Shown here one piece after another: positions 20,175-44,320 of a stretch of DNA of 64,000 bases. A program made the translations under genes and the position numbers. The notes beneath the pieces were generated by a model, which saw only the letters and a program-made list of their open reading frames with translations, did not search any database and had not been told where the DNA came from. Location of the stretch: assembly GCF_002252755.1 (NCBI RefSeq), contig NZ_NHOY01000069.1:1-64000 (forward strand), in the 5' to 3' direction. The stretch comes from Halorubrum sp. Hd13. Lineage in GTDB: Archaea; Halobacteriota; Halobacteria; Halobacteriales; Haloferacaceae. Every line of letters begins with the position of its first letter. Position 1 is the stretch's first letter.

Positions 20175-20509
20175 TCTGCCGCCCCGACGGCCGCCGTCTT
20201 CGCCCCGACCGATCCCGCCGAGCCGCGGCGTCGCCTCCGGCCGCCGGTTCCGCTCCGATCGATCCCGCCGAGCCGCGGCGTCGATCTCTCGGAAAACCTT
20301 CCCGTTTGTCCGTTACTGTTCGTGGAAACCGCCGAGTCGACGAAAATATTGCCGCCCCTGACGAGATTTGTTCAAAAACGTCCGGTTCTCTGGGAATCTG
20401 ATGGACAGTTTCTCAGCGCGCCCACCGATTTCTGATTATAATAAACTATGTACGAAAACGATATTACCCGGGCGGCGAACCGTTCTGACATGAACAGGTG
20501 GGTTCCACG
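20175..20509. other. Intergenic region upstream of pdhA with 23-bp direct repeat
   Basis: A 23-base unit (GATCCCGCCGAGCCGCGGCG plus TCG) occurs at 20211-20233 and again at 20261-20283, exactly 50 bases apart. Downstream the region turns AT-rich, with GATTATAATAAAC at about 20433-20445 as the likely TATA region of the pdh operon. No gene seen. Confidence 0.6.
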
Positions 20510-21613
20510 GTGAGCGTATTCGACAGGGCGTACGACGACCCGGTCCGCGTGATCGACGAGGACGGCGAGGTCGTCGGCGACGTCCCCGATCTCGACGACG
20601 GGGAACTCGTCGAGATGTACCGGCACATGCGGCTCGCGCGTCACTTCGACGGCCGGGCGGTGAGCCTCCAGCGACAGGGGCGGATGGGGACGTACCCGCC
20701 GCTGTCGGGACAAGAGGGGGCTCAGATCGGTTCCGCGACGGCGCTCGCCGAAGACGACTGGATCGTTCCCTCGTACCGCGAGCACGGCGCGGCCCTGGTC
20801 CACGGGCTCCCGCTGAAACAGACCCTCCTCTACTGGATGGGCCACGAGTCCGGCAACAAGGCGCCGGCGGACGTCAACGTCTTCCCGGTCGCCGTCCCCA
20901 TCGCGTCGCAGGTGCCCCACGCCACGGGCGCGGCGTGGGCCGCGAAGCTCCGCGGGAGCGACGAGGCCTTCCTCTGTTACTTCGGCGACGGCGCGACCAG
21001 CGAGGGCGACTTCCACGAGGGCGTCAACTTCGCCGGCGTGTTCGACACGCCGACCGTCTTCTTCTGTAACAACAACCAGTGGGCGATCTCCGTGCCCCGC
21101 GAGCGGCAGACCCGGAGCGCGACGCTGGCGCAGAAGGCGGAGGCGTACGGGATCGACGGCGTGCAGGTCGACGGGATGGACCCGCTGGCGGTGTACGGCG
21201 TCACGACGGCCGCACTGGAGAAGGCGCGCGACCCGGAGACGGACCGGCCGCGCCCGACGCTGATCGAGGCGGTGCAGTACCGGTTCGGCGCGCACACGAC
21301 CGCCGACGACCCCACCGTCTACCGCGACGACGACGAGGTCGAGCGCTGGAAGGCGAAGGACCCGATCCCGCGGCTGGAGGCGTACCTCCGCTCGGAGGGG
21401 ATCCTCGACGACGAGCGGGTCGCGGAGATCGAGGCCGCGATCGAGGAGCGCGTCGCCGACGCGATCGACGCGGCGGAGGCGGCCGCGCGGCCGGACCCGA
21501 GCGAGCTGTTCGAGCACGCGTACGCGGAGCTCCCGCCCGAGCTGGAGCGGCAGTACGAGGAGTTCGCGGCGTTGCGGGAGACGCGCGGCGACGAAGCGTT
21601 CCTGGAGGAGTAA
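20510..21613 (+). CDS. pdhA: Pyruvate dehydrogenase-type E1 component, alpha subunit
   Basis: A 367-residue E1 alpha subunit of a 2-oxoacid dehydrogenase complex. It decarboxylates pyruvate or a branched-chain 2-oxoacid with ThDP, together with E1 beta. Visible are MRLARHFDGRAVSLQRQGRM, the ThDP/Mg site GDGATSEGDFHEGVNFAG with NNNQWAISVP, and RFGAHTTADDPTVYR near the phosphorylation-loop region. The GTG at 20510 gives the usual haloarchaeal N-terminus (MSVFDR) behind a GGTGGG element. A GTG four codons upstream is possible. First of four genes in complex order. The true substrate in haloarchaea is debated, because pyruvate is oxidised by a ferredoxin oxidoreductase. Confidence 0.93.
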   Translation: MSVFDRAYDDPVRVIDEDGEVVGDVPDLDDGELVEMYRHMRLARHFDGRAVSLQRQGRMGTYPPLSGQEGAQIGSATALAEDDWIVPSYREHGAALVHGLPLKQTLLYWMGHESGNKAPADVNVFPVAVPIASQVPHATGAAWAAKLRGSDEAFLCYFGDGATSEGDFHEGVNFAGVFDTPTVFFCNNNQWAISVPRERQTRSATLAQKAEAYGIDGVQVDGMDPLAVYGVTTAALEKARDPETDRPRPTLIEAVQYRFGAHTTADDPTVYRDDDEVERWKAKDPIPRLEAYLRSEGILDDERVAEIEAAIEERVADAIDAAEAAARPDPSELFEHAYAELPPELERQYEEFAALRETRGDEAFLEE

Positions 21614-22600: not shown

Positions 22601-22648
22601 GATGGCTCCCGCGGAGATCCACCACATGACAGTCCCGGAGGTCGACGC

Positions 22649-24328
22649 ATGACGGTCGAGGAGTTCAGACTGCCGGACGTCGGCGAGGGCGTCGCGGAGG
22701 GCGAGTTGGTGTCGTGGCTCGTCGCCCCCGGCGACCGCGTCGAGGAGGACCAGCCGGTCGCGGAGGTCGAGACCGACAAGGCGCTCGTCGAGGTCCCGTC
22801 GAGCTACGACGGGACCGTCGAGGAGCTGTTCGTCGAGGAGGGGGAGATGGTCCCGGTCGGCGACGTGATCATCTCGTTCCGCGTTGACGGCGCGGAGGCG
22901 GACGCGGACGACTCCGGCTCCGCCGACGAGGGGGCCGTCGACGAGACGAGCCCCGACGCGAGCGAACCGGAAGCGGCAGACGAGTCGGCGCCGGCAGACG
23001 AGTCGGCGCCGGCAGACGAGTCGGCGCCGGCAGACGAGTCGGCGCCGGCGACCTCGTCCGGCCGGACGTTCGCGCCGCCGTCGGCCCGTCGGCTCGCCCG
23101 CGAGCTGGGCGTCGACGTCGCGGCCGTCGACGGGAGCGGTCCCGGCGGCCGCGTCACCGAGGCCAACGTGAGAGCGCACGCCGAGGCAGCCGACGAAGAC
23201 GCCGCGAGCGGCGGCGGCGACGCGCCCGAACCGCGGCCCGCGCCGACCCCGACAGATGTCGACTCCGGCGACCGGAAGTCCGCCGTGCGCAAGCGCGGCG
23301 AGGGGGGCACCGCCGAGCCCTCGGTGACCGCCGATGCCGGGTCGGCGCCCGAGCCGGCCGGTCGCGACACGACGCTCGCGACGCCGGCGACCCGGAAGCT
23401 CGCCCGCGACCTCGACGTCGACATCGACGATGTGCCGACCGACGAGACCCGTGACGGCGAGGCGTTCGTCACGGGCGAGGACGTGCAGGCGTACGCGGAC
23501 GCCCCGGAGTCGGAGACGGCCGAACCGGAACCCACGCCCGAACCGGTCGACGTCGACGCGGGCGCGGAGCCCGCCGCGAGCGATACCGCCGCCGACCGGG
23601 CCGCCGCCGCGACCGAGACGGGCGCGTCCGCCGGCGACGAGACCGTTCCCTACCGGGGCGTGCGCCGCACCATCGGGGAGCAGATGGAGCGGTCGAAGTT
23701 CACCGCGCCGCACGTCACCCACCACGACACCGCCGAGGTCGACGCCCTCGTGGCGGCGCGCGAGGAGCTGAAGCCGAAGGCGGACGCCGAGGAGGTGAAG
23801 CTCACCTACATGCCGTTCGTGATGAAGGCGATCGTCGCGGGGCTGAAAGAGCACCCCTATCTCAACAGCGAACTGCGCGAGGACGACGGAGAGATCGTTT
23901 TGAAAAAGGAGTACAACCTCGGGATCGCGGTCGCGACCGACGCCGGGCTGATGGTCCCCGTCGTCGACGACGTCGACGAGAAGGGGATCTTCGAACTGGC
24001 CGCGGAGGTTCGCGACCTCGCCTCCCGCGCCCGCGATCGCAAGCTCAAGCCCGCCGAGATGAAGGGGAGCACGTTCAGCGTCACCAACTTCGGCGCCATC
24101 GGCGGCGAGTTCGCCACGCCGATCATCAACTACCCAGAGACCGCGATCCTCGGGCTCGGCGCCATCGAGGAGCGCCCCGTCGTCCGCGACGGCGAGGTCG
24201 TCCCGGCGCCGACGTTACCGCTGTCGCTGTCGATCGACCACCGCGTCGTCGACGGCGCGGTGGCGGCCGAGTTCGCGAACACCGTAATGGAACACCTTGA
24301 ACAACCGCTGCTGCTGTTGACTCAATAA
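22649..24328 (+). CDS. pdhC: Dihydrolipoamide acyltransferase E2 with two E3-binding domains
   Basis: A 559-residue E2 core. A lipoyl domain occupies residues 1-80 (VETDKALVEVPSSYDGTVEE, lysine in the DKA turn). A linker holds a fourfold DESAPA repeat. The first peripheral subunit-binding domain is at about 143-175 (PPSARRLARELGVDVAAVDG). A second linker leads to another at about 243-280 (TPATRKLARDLDVDIDDVPT). The catalytic acyltransferase domain follows (VPYRGVRRTIGEQMERSKF) and closes with SIDHRVVDGAVAAEF, which holds the catalytic His. Two binding domains, where one is usual, is worth noting. Its stop overlaps the E3 start by one base (TAATG). Confidence 0.93.
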   Translation: MTVEEFRLPDVGEGVAEGELVSWLVAPGDRVEEDQPVAEVETDKALVEVPSSYDGTVEELFVEEGEMVPVGDVIISFRVDGAEADADDSGSADEGAVDETSPDASEPEAADESAPADESAPADESAPADESAPATSSGRTFAPPSARRLARELGVDVAAVDGSGPGGRVTEANVRAHAEAADEDAASGGGDAPEPRPAPTPTDVDSGDRKSAVRKRGEGGTAEPSVTADAGSAPEPAGRDTTLATPATRKLARDLDVDIDDVPTDETRDGEAFVTGEDVQAYADAPESETAEPEPTPEPVDVDAGAEPAASDTAADRAAAATETGASAGDETVPYRGVRRTIGEQMERSKFTAPHVTHHDTAEVDALVAAREELKPKADAEEVKLTYMPFVMKAIVAGLKEHPYLNSELREDDGEIVLKKEYNLGIAVATDAGLMVPVVDDVDEKGIFELAAEVRDLASRARDRKLKPAEMKGSTFSVTNFGAIGGEFATPIINYPETAILGLGAIEERPVVRDGEVVPAPTLPLSLSIDHRVVDGAVAAEFANTVMEHLEQPLLLLTQ

Positions 24329-37906: not shown

Positions 37907-40096
37907 ATGGGCCGACGCAAGAAGATCGTTCAAGAGTGCGAGCGGCTGATGGACAGCCCGGAGAACATCCGGAACATCGCCATCGCCGCCCACGTCGACC
38001 ACGGCAAGACGACCCTCTCCGACAATCTGCTGGCCGGCGCCGGCATGATCTCCCAGGACACCGCGGGCGAACAGCTCGCGATGGACACGAAGGAGGACGA
38101 GCAGGAGCGCGGTATCACCATCGACGCGGCGAACGTCTCGATGACGCACGAGTACGAGGACACGAACCACCTCGTCAACCTCATCGACACGCCCGGCCAC
38201 GTCGACTTCGGGGGCGACGTCACCCGCGCGATGCGCGCGGTCGACGGCGCACTGGTCGTCGTCGACGCCGTCGAGGGCGCGATGCCCCAGACCGAGACGG
38301 TGCTCCGGCAGGCGCTTCGCGAGGGCGTGAAGCCGGCGCTGTTCATCAACAAGGTCGACCGCCTCATCTCCGAGCTCCAAGAGGGGCCCCAGGAGATGCA
38401 GGAGCGGCTGATGTCCGTCATCGCCGACGTCAACGAGCTCATTCGCGGGATGGCCGAGAACATGGACGACATCCCCGAGGACTGGACCGTCTCCGTCGAG
38501 GGCGGCACCGTCGGCTTCGGCTCCGCGCTGTACAAGTGGGGCGTCTCGATGCCGTCGATGCAGCGGACCGGTATGGACTTCGGCGACATCATGGACCTTG
38601 AGAAGGCCGACAAACGCGACGAGCTCCACGAGCGCACGCCGCTGTCGAACGTCGTGCTCGACATGGTCTGTGAGCACTTCCCGAACCCGGTCGACGCACA
38701 GCCCCGTCGTGTCCCGCGCATCTGGCGCGGTGACGCCGACTCTGAGCTGGCCGACACGATGCGGATGGTCGACGAGGACGGCGAGGTCGTCTTCATGGTC
38801 ACCGACATCTCGATGGACCCGCACGCGGGCGAGATCGCGACGGGCCGCGTCTTCTCCGGCACGCTGGAGAAGGGCCAGGAGCTGTACGTCTCCGGCACCG
38901 CGGGCAAGAACCGCATCCAGAGCGTCGGCCTCTTCATGGGGTCGGAGCGCGAGGAGGTGGAGCACGTCCCGGCCGGTAACATCGCGTCCGTCACCGGGCT
39001 GCGAGACGCCATCGCCGGCTCCACGGTCTCCTCCGTCGAGATGACCCCGTTCGAGTCGATCGAGCACATCTCCGAGCCGGTCATCACGAAGTCCGTCGAG
39101 GCGCAGAACATGGACGACCTGCCGAAGCTCATCGAGACGCTCCAGCAGGTCGCGAAGGAGGACCCGACGATCCAGATCGAGATCAACGAGGACACGGGCG
39201 AGCACCTCATCAGCGGGCAGGGCGAGCTCCACCTCGAAGTGATCACCCAGCGGATCCGCGACAACCAGGGGATCCCGGTCATCACCGGCGAACCGATCGT
39301 CGTCTTCCGCGAGCAGCCCCAGGAGGCGTCCCGCGAGGTCGAGGGGGTCTCGCCGAACCGCCACAACAAGTTCTACATCACCGTCCAGCCGATGGATCAA
39401 GACATCGTCGACGCCATCCAGCTCGGCGAGGTCTCGATGGACATGCCCGAACTGGAGCGCCGCGAGGCGCTGCAGGAGGCCGGCATGGACAAGGACACCT
39501 CCCAGAACGTCGAGGACATCCACCGGACGAACATCCTCATCGACGACACGAAGGGGATTCAGCACCTCAACGAGACGATGGAGCTCGTCTTAGAGGGCCT
39601 CCAGGAGGCGCTCGACGACGGCCCGCTCGCCGCCGAGCCGGTCCAGGGGTCGCTGTTCCGCCTGCACGACGCGAAGCTCCACGAGGACACCATCCACCGC
39701 GGGCCCGCGCAGGTCATCCCCGCCGTCCGCGACGCGGTCCACCGCGCGCTGATCGACGGCGAGGTCCGCCTGCTGGAGCCGATCCAGGACGTCCGGATCG
39801 ACGTGCCCTCGGAGCACATGGGCGCCGCGTCCGGCGAGATCCAGGGCCGCCGCGGCCGCGTCGACGACATGTACCAGGAGGGCGACCTCATGGTCGTCGA
39901 GGGCATCGCGCCCGTCGAGGAGATGATCGGCTTCTCCTCCGACATCCGCTCGGCCACCGAGGGCCGCGCCTCGTGGAACACCGAGAACGCGGGCTTCCGC
40001 GTCCTCGTCGACAACCTCCAGCGCGAGAAGATAATGGAGATCCGCGAGCGCAAGGGGATGAAGCTGGAACTGCCGCAGTCGATCGACTACTTCTAA
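37907..40096 (+). CDS. fusA: Translation elongation factor EF-2
   Basis: A 729-residue GTPase that drives ribosomal translocation. G motifs are [23 protein letters not shown] and INKVDRLI. The domain IV loop [13 protein letters not shown] contains His at about residue 597, the position modified to diphthamide. C-terminal [16 protein letters not shown] is typical of haloarchaeal EF-2. The ATG at 37907 follows GGTATA without room for a long leader. Single gene here, not joined to EF-1 alpha. Confidence 0.97.
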
Positions 40097-40235
40097 GCGT
40101 CGGTCGGCCCGCGGTCGCGGTTTTCTTCGGTTAAGGGGTCTTCTTCGGTTTGGGGGTCTTCTTCGATTTTGCGGCGTTTCCTCGCGACCGAGAGAGCCGT
40201 CTCGCCGAATCCGGATCGGATTCTCGCGGCCGCAG
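40097..40235. other. Short intergenic region with TCTTCTTCG repeat
   Basis: Between the convergent EF-2 gene and the 40925-40236 gene. GGTCTTCTTCGGTTT-like units of about 18 bases occur roughly three times near 40120-40175. A T-rich stretch in this position could help end transcription from both sides. Confidence 0.45.
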
Positions 40236-40925
40236 TCACCCGACGAAGGTGACCGTCTCGGTTATCTCGCACCGGAGGGTCCCGACCTCGATCCGACCGC
40301 CGATCCCCCGTAGCCACGTTTTCCGTACCGGAACGGTAACGTTCGACTCCATCGTCGCGGTCGCTCCGGTCCCGTCGCCGTCGGCGGGCCCCGAGTAGTT
40401 CAGGATCGGATTCACGGCTCCTCGGCCGCTCCCCGGCTCGAACGCGTGGCGGATCTCGGTGCGTCCGGACACGTCCCCGTCCGTCGTGTCCCCGTAGGCG
40501 TTGGCGTTCGAGAAGAAGACCGTTCCCGAACCGTCCCCGTTCAGTCTGAGACGGAGCGAGAGGCGCGGTCGTCCGAGGGCGTAGTTCCAGTCCCGACTGT
40601 CGTCGTCCACGGTCGCCTCGTAGCTGACGATGCGGAGCCCGCCGTCGTGGAACCGGTCGGAGCCGTCGTTCGGTCCCTGCACCGTCAGTACGAGGGTCGC
40701 GTCGACGCCCTCGCCGGCGAATCGATCGGTGTCCTCGTCGATGATCGCCCAGTCTCCGTGCCCGCCCTCGACGGGAGGGCCCCACGAGGGCGATTCGTCC
40801 GGCGATCCGGTCGTTTCCATCGCCAGATCCGCCCCGATCAATCCCGCCATCGCGAGCGCGACGTACTTCAGAACCGGCCGCCTGTCGGTGGCGGTCGGAC
40901 CCGATCCTCTGTCGGTGGAGGGCAT
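40236..40925 (-). CDS. Membrane-anchored or secreted protein of unknown function
   Basis: A 229-residue protein. A hydrophobic segment at about 18-36 (VLKYVALAMAGLIGADLAM) follows a basic RR pair and should act as signal or anchor. The rest is predicted extracellular and beta-rich, with an acidic HGDWAIIDEDTDRFAGEG region, repeated VTVP/TVTFV strands and a sequon-like NVT. It has no catalytic motif and no family I recognise. Single gene, convergent with EF-2. Confidence 0.6.
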   Translation of the reverse strand: MPSTDRGSGPTATDRRPVLKYVALAMAGLIGADLAMETTGSPDESPSWGPPVEGGHGDWAIIDEDTDRFAGEGVDATLVLTVQGPNDGSDRFHDGGLRIVSYEATVDDDSRDWNYALGRPRLSLRLRLNGDGSGTVFFSNANAYGDTTDGDVSGRTEIRHAFEPGSGRGAVNPILNYSGPADGDGTGATATMESNVTVPVRKTWLRGIGGRIEVGTLRCEITETVTFVG

Positions 40926-41133
40926 CAGCGCGGACGATACCGCTGCCGTCCGAAAATGTCTTTTGCCTGTTTCGAGACTGAAACGCCCACCGTACCCGCG
41001 GATCTCGACCGAACACGTCTCTCCCCGTCGAACCGTCCCCGCCGCCCCCGTGCGGTTCGTTCACACGGAGGCGGGCGAGGCAACGCCTGCCATCGCCGAA
41101 GGCTTATACCCGATCCCCCGACTCCTTTCGGGT

Positions 41134-41280
41134 ATGCAGACGGGCACGACTCCCGCTCGGCGCATCGCGACGGAGCCACCAAGCGACCGCTCCGCGTCGC
41201 CGACAGGACCGTGCCGGATCGCGATCGCAGGAGTAATTGCTCCACCCGCCTCGGCGCGCCGCACGGAGGTGGCGGCGTGA
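41134..41280 (+). CDS. Leader ORF upstream of ACT-homoserine dehydrogenase operon
   Basis: A 48-codon frame starting at an ATG about 27 bases after a TATA-like GGCTTATAC (41101-41109), so the transcript would be leaderless and translation would begin here. It ends in GTGA, sharing four bases with the GTG start of the ACT gene. The ACT gene overlaps the next gene in exactly the same way. The peptide has six Thr and four Ile (TGTTPARRIATE, RIAIAGVIAPP). A regulatory leader peptide or a coupling ORF fits, but there is no protein family to support it. Confidence 0.5.
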   Translation: MQTGTTPARRIATEPPSDRSASPTGPCRIAIAGVIAPPASARRTEVAA

Positions 41281-41867
41281 GCGACGACCGCGACGGCGCT
41301 CCCGAGGAGGCGGCGGACGACGACGCCAGCCCCGACGGGGGGCACGCCTCGGCGACGCCGTCGACGCACACGGTGCGGCTCGAACTCGTCGACGAGCCCG
41401 GACAGCTGCTCGCCGCCCTCCGGCCGATCGCCGACAACGGCGGGAACCTCCTCTCGATCTACCACGAGCGGGGGAACAAGACGCCCCGGGGCCGAATCCC
41501 GGTCGAGGTCGACTTCGAGGCGACGCAAGAGCGCTTCGAGGGGATCGTCGAGGCGCTCCGGAGCGAGGGCGTGAACGTGATGCAGGCGGGGACGGAGCGG
41601 TACGCCGAGGAGGTGACGCTGCTCCTGTTCGGCCACCTCATCGACACCGACCTCTCCGACACGCTCTCCCGGATCGAGGCCTGCGCGTCGGCGTCGGTCG
41701 CCGACGTGTCGCTCGCGGCGCCGCAGGGGACCGAGGAGGCGTCGAGCGCTCGGCTCCGCCTGGAGGCCCGCGCCGGCGAGACGGAGGCCGCGCTCGCGGC
41801 GGTCCGGGAGCTGGCCGAGGAGAAGGAGCTGCGCCTGGTCGAGCCGCTCACGGGGGTGGAGGCGTGA
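41277..41867 (+). CDS. ACT-domain amino-acid-binding protein
   Basis: A 196-residue protein starting at GTG 41277, preceded by the purine-rich GGAGGTGG. After an acidic N-terminus comes an ACT domain (HTVRLELVDEPGQLLAALRP, GNLLSIYHERGNKTPRGRIP) and a second ACT-like half with EEVTLLLFGHLIDTDLSDTL. ACT domains bind amino acids and confer feedback control. It overlaps the homoserine dehydrogenase gene (GTGA), which itself lacks an ACT domain, so this protein probably serves as a separate regulatory subunit for it. The gene pair is common in haloarchaea. Confidence 0.87.
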   Translation: MSDDRDGAPEEAADDDASPDGGHASATPSTHTVRLELVDEPGQLLAALRPIADNGGNLLSIYHERGNKTPRGRIPVEVDFEATQERFEGIVEALRSEGVNVMQAGTERYAEEVTLLLFGHLIDTDLSDTLSRIEACASASVADVSLAAPQGTEEASSARLRLEARAGETEAALAAVRELAEEKELRLVEPLTGVEA

Positions 41868-42850
41868 GACTCGCCGTCATCGGCGCGGGCGCGGTCGGGC
41901 GCTCCGTCGTCGACCTCGCGAGCGAGTACGGCCACGAGGTCGTCGCCGTCGCGGACTCCTCGACGGCGGTCGTCGCGGACGGGACGGGCGGCCGGGACGC
42001 CGGCGTCGACCCCGACGCCGTGGTGGCCCGGAAGGCGGAGCGGGGGATCGTCGGCGACGCCGACCCCGCGGACGCGCTGGCGGCCGACTACGACGTCCTC
42101 GTCGAGGCGACGCCGACGACGCTGGGCGACGCTGAGCCCGGCTTCTCGCACGTGACTCGCGCCTTGGAGCGCGACCGCCACGCCGTGCTCGCGAACAAGG
42201 GCCCGGTCGCGGAGCGCTTCGGCGACCTGCGGGCGGCCGTCGCCGACAGCGCGGGCGAGATCCGGTTCGAGGCCACAGTCGGCGGCGCGATTCCGGCGGT
42301 CTCGACCGTCGAGGACATCGAGCCCGGCCACGTCACGGCGGTGCGCGGCGTGCTCAACGGGACGGCCAACTTCATCCTCACGCGGATGGCCGCGGAGGGG
42401 CTCGACTACGAGCACGTGCTCGCGGAGGCGCAGGACCTCGGCGTCGCCGAGGCGGACCCCTCCTTCGACGTCGACGGGACCGACGCGGCGCTGAAGTGCG
42501 TCATCCTCGCGAACGTGCTCTCGTTCGGCGCGGCCGACGACCCGGCCGACGCTCGCGAGTTCACGCTCGAGGACGCCGACGTCTCCGGGATCCGCGACGT
42601 CCCCGGCTCGGCGCTCCGGCTCGCCGCCGAGGACGGCCGGACGGTCCGGCTCATCGGCGAGGCGACCGGCGAGACGGTCCGGGTCGCCCCGCGGCTCGTC
42701 CCCGAGAACGGGACGCTCGCGGTCTCGGGCACCCAGAACATCGTCCAGATCGAGACCTCGCACGCGGGTCGGCTCAACATCTCGGGACGCGGCGCCGGCG
42801 GCCCGGAGACCGCCAGCGCGGTGCTCGGGGATGTCGGGCGACTGGAGTAG
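41864..42850 (+). CDS. hom: Homoserine dehydrogenase
   Basis: A 328-residue NAD(P)-dependent enzyme that reduces aspartate semialdehyde to homoserine for threonine, isoleucine and methionine synthesis. The Rossmann start is LAVIGAGAVGRSVVDLA. The catalytic part shows VLANKGPVAERF, FEATVGGAIPAVSTVEDI and VLNGTANFILTRMAAEGLDY, then AEADPSFDVDGTDAALK. It starts at GTG 41864 inside the end of the ACT gene. It is shorter than bacterial enzymes because the regulatory domain is encoded separately upstream. Confidence 0.93.
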   Translation: MRLAVIGAGAVGRSVVDLASEYGHEVVAVADSSTAVVADGTGGRDAGVDPDAVVARKAERGIVGDADPADALAADYDVLVEATPTTLGDAEPGFSHVTRALERDRHAVLANKGPVAERFGDLRAAVADSAGEIRFEATVGGAIPAVSTVEDIEPGHVTAVRGVLNGTANFILTRMAAEGLDYEHVLAEAQDLGVAEADPSFDVDGTDAALKCVILANVLSFGAADDPADAREFTLEDADVSGIRDVPGSALRLAAEDGRTVRLIGEATGETVRVAPRLVPENGTLAVSGTQNIVQIETSHAGRLNISGRGAGGPETASAVLGDVGRLE

Positions 42851-43054
42851 CGATTTTCACCCCGTTTCGGGGGACGACCGACCCTCTCGCAGTCGAACCG
42901 CGTGACCGGGACCCCTACCGTGTGTCCCGCTGACGTGCCCCGCGTTGTCGAGAATCGCCTGACTGCGTCGCGATGGCCTGTGAACCGTATCGAAACCGTT
43001 TTAGTGGAATCAACCGAAACTTACTCACAGAGCGCCTTAGCGCGTGATTACCCC

Positions 43055-44320
43055 ATGAGTGACAAACCGCACCAGAACCTGGCCATTATCGGCCACGTCG
43101 ACCACGGCAAGAGTACGCTCGTGGGTCGCCTCCTCTTCGAGACGGGGAGCGTCCCCGAGCACGTAATCGAGCAGCACCGCGAGGAAGCCGAAGAGAAGGG
43201 CAAGGGCGGCTTCGAGTTCGCCTACGTGATGGACAACCTCGCCGAGGAGCGCGAGCGCGGCGTCACGATCGACATCGCCCACCAGGAGTTCGACACGGAC
43301 AACTACTACTTCACCATCGTCGACTGCCCGGGCCACCGTGACTTCGTGAAGAACATGATCACGGGCGCCTCGCAGGCCGACAACGCGGTGCTCGTCGTCG
43401 CGGCCGACGACGGCGTCGCGCCCCAGACCCGAGAGCACGTGTTCCTGGCCCGCACGCTGGGCATCAACGAGCTCATCATCGGCGTCAACAAGATGGACCT
43501 GGTCGACTACCAGGAGTCCACCTACAACGAGGTCATCGAGGAGGTCAAGAACCTGCTCAACCAGGTCCGCTTCGCGACCGACGACACGACATTCGTGCCG
43601 ATCTCCGCGTTCGAGGGCGACAACGTCTCCGAGGACTCCGAGAACACTCCCTGGTACGACGGCCCCACCCTGCTGGAGTCGCTCAACGACCTGCCGGAGT
43701 CCGAGCCGCCGACGGACGCGCCGCTCCGACTCCCCATCCAGGACGTGTACACCATCTCTGGTATCGGGACCGTCCCCGTGGGACGCGTCGAGACCGGGAT
43801 CCTCAACACCGGCGACAACGTCTCCTTCCAGCCGTCCGACGTGGGCGGCGAGGTGAAGACGGTCGAGATGCACCACGAAGAGGTGCCCAAGGCCGAGCCC
43901 GGCGACAACGTCGGGTTCAACGTCCGCGGCATCGGCAAGGACGACATCCGTCGCGGCGACGTCTGTGGCCCCGCCGACGACCCGCCGAGCGTCGCCGAGA
44001 CGTTCAAGGCGCAGGTCGTCGTCATGCAGCACCCGTCGGTCATCACGGCCGGGTACACGCCCGTCTTCCACGCCCACACGGCGCAGGTCGCCTGTACGAT
44101 CGAGTCGATCGACCAGAAGATCGACCCGTCGTCCGGTGAGGTCGCCGAGGAGAACCCGGACTTCATCAAGTCCGGCGACGCCGCGGTCGTCACCGTGCGC
44201 CCGCAAAAGCCGCTCAGCATCGAGCCGTCCGGCGAGATCCCGGAACTCGGCAGCTTCGCCATCCGCGACATGGGTCAGACCATCGCGGCCGGCAAGGTGC
44301 TCGAAGTCAACGAGCGATAA
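43055..44320 (+). CDS. tuf: Translation elongation factor EF-1 alpha
   Basis: A 421-residue GTPase that delivers aminoacyl-tRNA to the ribosome. G motifs are [27 protein letters not shown] and NKMDLVDYQ. Domains II and III follow with [20 protein letters not shown] and [16 protein letters not shown]. The ATG at 43055 gives the family start ([19 protein letters not shown]). It is followed after three bases by the S10 gene, the standard archaeal pair. Upstream, CCGTTTTAGTGG near 43000 may be the promoter. Confidence 0.97.

Follow-up and report, generated by a model that had tools for sequence, protein, structure and literature searches.

A conserved leader ORF coupled to the ACT-hom genes of haloarchaea and a candidate threonine-sensing codon block in Haloferacaceae

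In Halorubrum sp. Hd13, a short open reading frame lies between a TATA-like box and an ACT-domain gene, which in turn is followed by the homoserine dehydrogenase gene hom. What does such an ORF contribute to the expression of the two genes, and do its codons matter? We studied this question at a locus within a 64,000 nt stretch of DNA (contig NZ_NHOY01000069.1, in the following called the window). The original prediction had placed ribosome entry at this leader ORF (uORF), followed by reinitiation at the ACT gene, and had suggested that stalling on its Thr and Ile codons could act as an attenuator-like control. Direct reading of the sequence confirmed the elements on which this suggestion was built, with correct coordinates and counts for the box, the ATG, the 48 codons, the GTGA leading into the ACT gene, the GTGA leading into hom, the six Thr and the four Ile. 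The elements of the locus are:

41104-41108, + strand: TATA-like box TTATA, read from the sequence, its first T 30 nt upstream of the leader ATG
41134..41280, + strand: putatively leaderless leader ORF (uORF) of 48 codons with its ATG at 41134-41136; architecture conserved in 210 of 220 loci
41265-41269, + strand: SD-like GGAGG within the uORF, 7 nt upstream of the ACT GTG
41277..41867, + strand: ACT-domain gene, 196 aa, predicted tandem ACT; its start overlaps the uORF stop by GTGA
41864..42850, + strand: homoserine dehydrogenase gene (hom); its start overlaps the ACT stop by GTGA

The uORF encodes the peptide MQTGTTPARRIATEPPSDRSASPTGPCRIAIAGVIAPPASARRTEVAA, and its stop codon (TGA, 41278-41280) lies within the GTGA shared with the ACT start codon (GTG at 41277). 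The ACT stop codon (TGA, 41865-41867) is joined to the hom start (GTG at 41864) in the same way. Together with the SD-like GGAGG in the upstream ORF, the stop/start overlap gives the uORF-ACT junction the anatomy of termination-reinitiation. The spacing of 30 nt from TTATA to ATG, which is also kept in the genus loci, suggests that the uORF is leaderless, i.e., that the transcript begins with its ATG or immediately beside it. Pfam matches were obtained for the ACT protein (ACT, PF01842, 1.7e-6) and for Hom (Homoserine_dh, PF00742, 5.9e-48), and the 48-aa peptide matched no Pfam family up to E = 1. Structure prediction yielded a tandem ACT arrangement (mean pLDDT 78.8, pTM 0.51), and among its Foldseek matches were SerB2 ACT domains and a GcvR-like protein as well as regulatory subunits of aspartokinase, with query TM-scores <0.5 and an uncertain relative placement of the domains. 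The ACT protein may be the feedback subunit of the ACT-less Hom.

The leader ORF pattern as such is not above chance in one genome. Within the window, box-spaced ATG ORFs abutting a gene start were found for 3 of 49 genes, compared to 0, 1 and 1 for the pseudo-starts AGT, GAT and GTA; in 400 kb of a congeneric chromosome with 331 crudely called genes, there were five such ATG ORFs and 2, 2 and 7 for the same pseudo-starts. The window contains two more very short boxed ORFs, at 20490-20513 (MNRWVPR) and 22626-22652 (MTVPEVDA), which overlap by 4 nt with the genes that begin at 20510 and 22649, respectively; their frequency in the single genome is likewise not above chance.

A different picture emerged when relatives were compared. 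From same-genus and order-wide genomes, 80 named loci and further family loci, 238 ACT-hom loci were assembled, yielding 220 non-redundant haloarchaeal loci after removal of 18 duplicates. This survey covers ACT homologs other than the weakest (families f2, f3, f9, f11, f12 and f15 among the matches), and L183, with 10 bases, was dropped. An automated caller detected a boxed ATG opening a short ORF that ends at the ACT start in 210 of the 220 loci, compared to 52, 36 and 50 for the pseudo-starts AGT, GAT and GTA, a comparison that does not amount to a P value as the loci are related. The overlap of the coupled ORFs measured 4 nt in 158 cases, 8 nt in 33, 0 nt in 15, -1 in three and 11 in one. 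At a few loci (L034, L059, L061), inspection by eye shows a compact ORF where the caller gives a longer one. Among the ten loci missed by the caller, four are coupled on inspection (L038, L048 and L084 with weak boxes, and L169), L229 and L232 show the overlap but lack a box, the ACT gene of L041 and L114 appears to be directly leaderless instead, and the remaining two have frame-shifted uORFs (L145, L188). In L145, a run contains six instead of seven C, possibly due to a sequencing error, and L188 is also shifted by a small length change; either sequencing error or decay may lie behind these shifts. The conservation in 210 of 220 loci, set against 36-52 for the pseudo-starts, argues that a ribosome-delivering leader ORF at this position is real and old.

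This architecture agrees with published work on Haloferax. A study of overlapping gene pairs (PMC6728339) reports that the downstream gene needed translation of the upstream gene in nine of nine tested pairs, and that SD motifs have no role for initiation at 5′ UTRs in Haloferax, with ample haloarchaeal use of such motifs at overlapping pairs. Leaderless transcripts make up 72% of the protein-coding transcripts of H. volcanii, according to another study (PMC4983044). From the published coupling in Haloferax and the conserved architecture, we infer that the uORF is the ribosome entry site for ACT-hom, and that it very probably delivers ribosomes by termination-reinitiation. The part of the original prediction that concerned ribosome entry at the leader ORF and reinitiation at ACT thus gains support, from the conserved box, ATG and overlap and from what the cited Haloferax work reports.

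Looking specifically at the main locus of the window's genus (n = 44; L001-L034, L139-L147 and L187), the uORF ends on a 4-nt overlap in 43 loci, despite lengths of 17 to 67 codons. The original prediction, which loss of the frame in relatives would have refuted, thus withstood this check: frame and overlap are kept, with a variable ORF length. The first ~24 codons are conserved at the nucleotide level, including the third positions (32 genus rows of at least 30 codons), with codons 3, 5, 14, 19 and 20 each represented by one single codon in 32 of 32 rows. This conservation of third positions points to a nucleic acid element as much as to a peptide or to codons. The underlying genus alignment comprises 33 of 34 rows, with the missing L007 covered by another comparison. 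The second half of the genus uORFs is unalignable by eye, and the distance from the conserved core (see below) to the ACT start ranges from 38 to 128 nt. In the unalignable tail, Thr still accounts for 12.2% of the codons in frame, compared to 5.4 and 2.1% off frame. Isoleucine as a control amino acid was rejected for this genus: it accounts for 30 of 1510 codons in 33 uORFs and for 2.0% in frame versus 0.7 and 0.7% off frame in the unaligned tail, and three of the four Ile of the window fall into the unconserved part.

The core of the uORF in the Haloferacaceae, the family of the window's genus, is a rare Thr codon:

41203..41205, + strand: conserved rare Thr codon ACA, codon 24 of the uORF (core); ACA-ACA or ATT-ACA-ATT-ATT in other genera

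ACA occupies codon 23 or 24 in all 41 genus uORFs of at least 30 codons. Throughout the family, codons 22-29 contain ACA in 109 of the 119 loci with a uORF of at least 30 codons, with 157 occurrences in frame and 5 off frame; due to the shared ancestry of the loci, these core counts, like the Thr counts below, do not represent independent events. Uncounted here are uORFs shorter than 30 codons, and L188 was included manually in its shifted frame. In 20 of 22 groups, at least 80% of the loci had ACA; for the next codon, CCG, this was true of 13 groups. One of these groups, L172, belongs to g28; with this assignment, all loci are positive in 19 of 21 genera, and the core is missing or incomplete in g28, a genus containing Halobellus (5/13), and in g39 (0/2). 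By eye, it is also absent from the short uORFs L027 and L187 of the window's genus, from g37 (L149, L150) and from short uORFs elsewhere. Hence, conservation of the codon for the end product (Thr ACA) is confined to Haloferacaceae uORFs of at least 30 codons; g39, most of g28, the short uORFs and most other families lack it. One uORF outside the Haloferacaceae, L040 of family f8, is Thr-rich with 47 codons, a Thr-Thr-Thr run and ACA at codons 25 and 28.

The block occurs as a single ACA (Halorubrum), as ACA-ACA, as ACA-ACA-ACA or, in g46 and g48, as ATT-ACA-ATT-ATT (Ile-Thr-Ile-Ile); g27 encodes Ile-Thr-Ile-Ile as well, but some of its Ile codons differ. A congener uses ACA for 44 of 2293 Thr codons (1.9%) and ATT for 40 of 1281 Ile codons (3.1%) in 64 long acidic ORFs, and six genes of the window use ACA for 3 of 134 Thr. 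Outside Halorubrum, the long uORFs are also rich in Thr. In 23 of them, Thr reaches 16.9% of the codons versus 6.5% in their ACT genes, with ACA providing 48 of 139 Thr codons versus 9 of 250, and in 65 of them Thr accounts for 15.5% in frame versus 6.3 and 9.5% off frame. The Haloferacaceae uORFs are long in most genera and recognizable across genera by an N-terminus of the type M-x-T-G-T...T-E....

The sequences on both sides of the block can form an RNA helix, proposed here as P1:

41143..41148, + strand: 5′ strand of the proposed RNA helix P1, GGCACG; covariation across genera, weak in the window's genus
41210..41215, + strand: 3′ strand of the proposed RNA helix P1, CGTGCC; covariation across genera

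Nucleotides 4-27 of the uORF pair with the 27 nt after the block, with a duplex energy of -22.05 kcal/mol for own pairs versus -17.68 kcal/mol for pairs mixed between genera. In a permutation test on the 104 loci with an ACA core (19 genera, g28 and g39 left out), none of 50,000 permutations was as good, and again none of 50,000 when the three strongest genera were removed. This matched-versus-mismatched permutation replaced an alignment-based covariation analysis over all genera, dropped because the helix slips in register. Four other segment pairs gave no such helix signal. When the 3′ segment was reversed as a control, a weak signal was obtained (323 of 20,000), and part of the helix effect may therefore reflect composition; reversing both segments leaves the complementarity identical and is no control. 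In 6 of 20 groups, the duplex was not below both medians, P1 pairing in Halorubrum itself was no better than in shuffled sequences (z 0.10), and the RNA of the window folded no better than shuffles (z -0.09). Double changes within this genus were found for two helix pairs only, in one sequence each.

Translational attenuation by exposing the ACT SD was modeled without a consistent effect: folding with a stalled ribosome gave no uniform change in SD accessibility, which was above that of the free RNA in 13 of 20 groups and above that with a ribosome at an earlier position in 10 of 20. Scans with bacterial-type consensus sequences, which are not archaeal, found no intrinsic terminator in 40900-43100 and no sigma-70-type promoter; given this type of terminator consensus, we make no claim of E. 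coli-type transcription attenuation.

Upstream of the TATA-like box, the genus loci share a further element:

41077..41102, + strand: conserved block immediately 5′ of the TATA box, GAGGCAACGCCTGCCATCGCCGAAGG; BRE, with a candidate regulator site

Most positions of this ~26-nt block reach an identity of 90% or more across 33 genus loci. The 13-mer GGCAACGNCTGCC taken from it has exactly two copies in its own genome, and a pattern search there gave these 2 exact and 30 one-mismatch hits compared to 121 for the reversed-pattern control, revealing no regulon.

Outside the long Haloferacaceae form, the uORF measures 6-18 codons in 82 of the 91 other coupled loci. The constant features across families are the box, the ATG, the short ORF and the overlap, frequently accompanied by a GGAGGTGA-like motif ahead of the ACT start, and the short peptides look unrelated between families. 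Of 70 different uORF peptides no longer than 18 aa, 54 contain at least one Thr and 11 contain Thr-Thr; their Thr content of 10.1% exceeds the 6.5% of ACT genes in a comparison that is not position-matched, and early codons are biased. A Thr attenuator general to haloarchaea is not supported, as the ORFs outside the Haloferacaceae are mostly short and unrelated and no common block was seen. The stalling on Thr and Ile proposed by the original prediction therefore fails as a general property, and for Ile also in the window's genus; what stands is the conserved in-frame block of rare Thr codons in Haloferacaceae, which fits Thr sensing, with Ile-Thr-Ile-Ile in three genera. Apparent second copies of ACT-hom, each with its own short, unrelated, leaderless coupled uORF, were seen at L043 (identical to L096), L044, L080 and L121 and in Haloferax at L089 and L091.

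Similar leaders precede another gene of the pathway. In 12 of 12 Haloferacaceae genomes, a boxed leaderless uORF runs into the start of the aspartokinase gene lysC (L368-L379; L374 in the genome of the window), with an overlap of 10 nt in 11 genomes and of 1 nt in L379. These peptides are unrelated to the hom uORF and contain Thr at 12 of 267 codons, so that Thr enrichment is not general to such ORFs. At ilvB (L248-L261), an ATGA-coupled ORF is present in 12 of 14 genomes, with a box in only two, downstream of a conserved promoter palindrome (GTAGGGG...CCCCTAC type) and in a leader that is C/A-rich by eye; enrichment of Ile, Val or Leu was not seen by eye in these ORFs. Boxed coupled uORFs were absent from pheS (14 loci), thrC (13; L291 at a contig end left out) and thrB (13; L322 at a contig end left out), and the one case in 12 thrS loci belongs to a gene that also looks directly leaderless. 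An ATG with its own box is found for thrB in 12 of 13, for thrC in 10 of 13 and for thrS in 11 of 12 loci, so that most of these genes look directly leaderless, in contrast to hom and lysC with their uORFs, a distribution that favors the mechanism proposed below.

We propose the following mechanism for the Haloferacaceae. Transcription would begin at or beside the uORF ATG, and ribosomes would load on this leaderless start, terminate within GTGA, and reinitiate, first at ACT with its internal GGAGG/GTG and then at hom. The availability of Thr-tRNA would set the speed of passage through the ACA/ATT block and thus the number of ribosomes reaching ACT-hom, yielding a leader-peptide attenuator that acts through coupling. 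Stalling, a response to threonine and its direction are the steps that we infer, on the basis of the architecture, its conservation, the codon block and the helix covariation observed here. The chance that the Thr block makes ribosome delivery dependent on threonyl-tRNA comes close to even without reaching it. Simple stalling would lower hom expression on starvation, which is the wrong sign; therefore, either the helix inverts the response or the leader has another role, e.g., adjusting the levels of ACT and Hom to the translation capacity.

The main competing explanation is that the uORF only brings ribosomes to the reinitiation site, with peptide and codons irrelevant and the A/C-rich core being an unstructured stretch that eases their passage. 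We consider this quite possible, if clearly below even. It is consistent with the short uORFs of other families, which have unrelated peptides and the same box and overlap, with the two loci in which a directly leaderless ACT gene takes their place, with the lysC uORFs lacking Thr enrichment, and with the C/A-rich leaders of the ilvB uORFs; the core could indeed be an unstructured A/C-rich loop. Yet it leaves unexplained why a long ORF with an in-frame rare Thr codon is kept in ~20 genera (109/119 loci), why ACA-ACA is swapped for Ile-Thr-Ile-Ile, again only Thr and Ile, and why the Thr bias is restricted to the reading frame.

Other explanations place the function outside the codons. The first 80 nt might constitute a structured RNA or DNA element, such as a protein or ligand site or a transcribed operator, to which the reading frame would be secondary; third positions that are conserved in the genus as much as the first and second, and the helix covariation between genera, would suit such an element. 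We regard it as unlikely, since 43 of 44 genus loci preserve the frame over 17-67 codons, the in-frame Thr bias reaches into the unalignable tail, and Rfam gave no match up to E = 1 in 40000-43200. Threonine control by a transcription factor bound at the block upstream of the TATA box, with a leader lacking any sensing role, is compatible with coupling and draws on the strong conservation of those ~26 nt in the genus, but it accounts for neither the codon block nor the helix, and the two exact genomic copies of the 13-mer reveal no regulon, making it quite improbable. That the uORF encodes a small functional protein is very improbable: its N-terminal part is recognizable between genera, but it lacks a Pfam match, has very unequal lengths, differs entirely in peptide in other families and is replaced by uORFs of 6-9 codons in the same position. 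Our best explanation, to which we give slightly less than even odds from the sequence comparisons, is a coupling uORF with threonine-sensing codons in the Haloferacaceae, i.e., a candidate archaeal leader-peptide attenuator.

Control by amino acids through the position of a ribosome on a leader ORF is a textbook mechanism of bacteria. Like the E. coli thrL/thr operon attenuator, the present system has a short ORF before a homoserine-pathway operon, candidate Thr (in some genera Ile) control codons and an RNA helix around them. Unlike thrL, it is archaeal and leaderless, it overlaps the start of the next gene and no terminator was found; a rare-codon block of one to four Thr, with a putative role in stalling, stands in place of the long Thr/Ile run.

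With the termination-reinitiation pairs of H. volcanii, as described in PMC6728339, it shares the NTGA overlap, the SD-like motif in the upstream ORF and the expected dependence of the downstream gene, the difference being that the upstream ORF is a tiny leaderless leader and not a protein gene. A review on ribosome-delivering short uORFs (PMC12548453) describes a similar proposal, in which a short ORF drives translation of the overlapping gene; the uORF studied here differs in being archaeal, deeply conserved at one operon and, in a single family, equipped with a block of Thr codons. Haloarchaeal leaders with short ORFs are also known from the 5′ UTRs of 150-250 nt in H. volcanii, but among the 16 entries of Table 2 in PMC4983044, some named only hypothetical, none is named hom or lysC, and the leaders described here probably start at the uORF itself. 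A literature search, with most subscription papers beyond its reach, found no case of archaeal amino-acid leader-peptide control, and passages of PMC11456600 and PMC12482152 mention neither such control nor a hom leader. Hence, coupling is already known in kind, and the leaderless leader with its family-conserved rare Thr block would be new, if sensing holds. Tentatively, and with some doubt, the uORF could be the first archaeal leader-peptide attenuator, in which rare Thr (ACA) and Ile (ATT) codons would sense charged tRNA and set ACT-hom translation via the helix and obligatory termination-reinitiation, and it would then belong with other haloarchaeal leaderless leader ORFs in a broader class that stands at committed biosynthetic steps (hom, lysC).

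Haloferax is genetically tractable, and the proposal is thus directly testable. If confirmed, it would give a role to an easily overlooked class of leader ORFs, at hom, at lysC and perhaps at ilvB, and it would mean that archaea with leaderless mRNAs use the leader logic of bacteria without a 5′ UTR.
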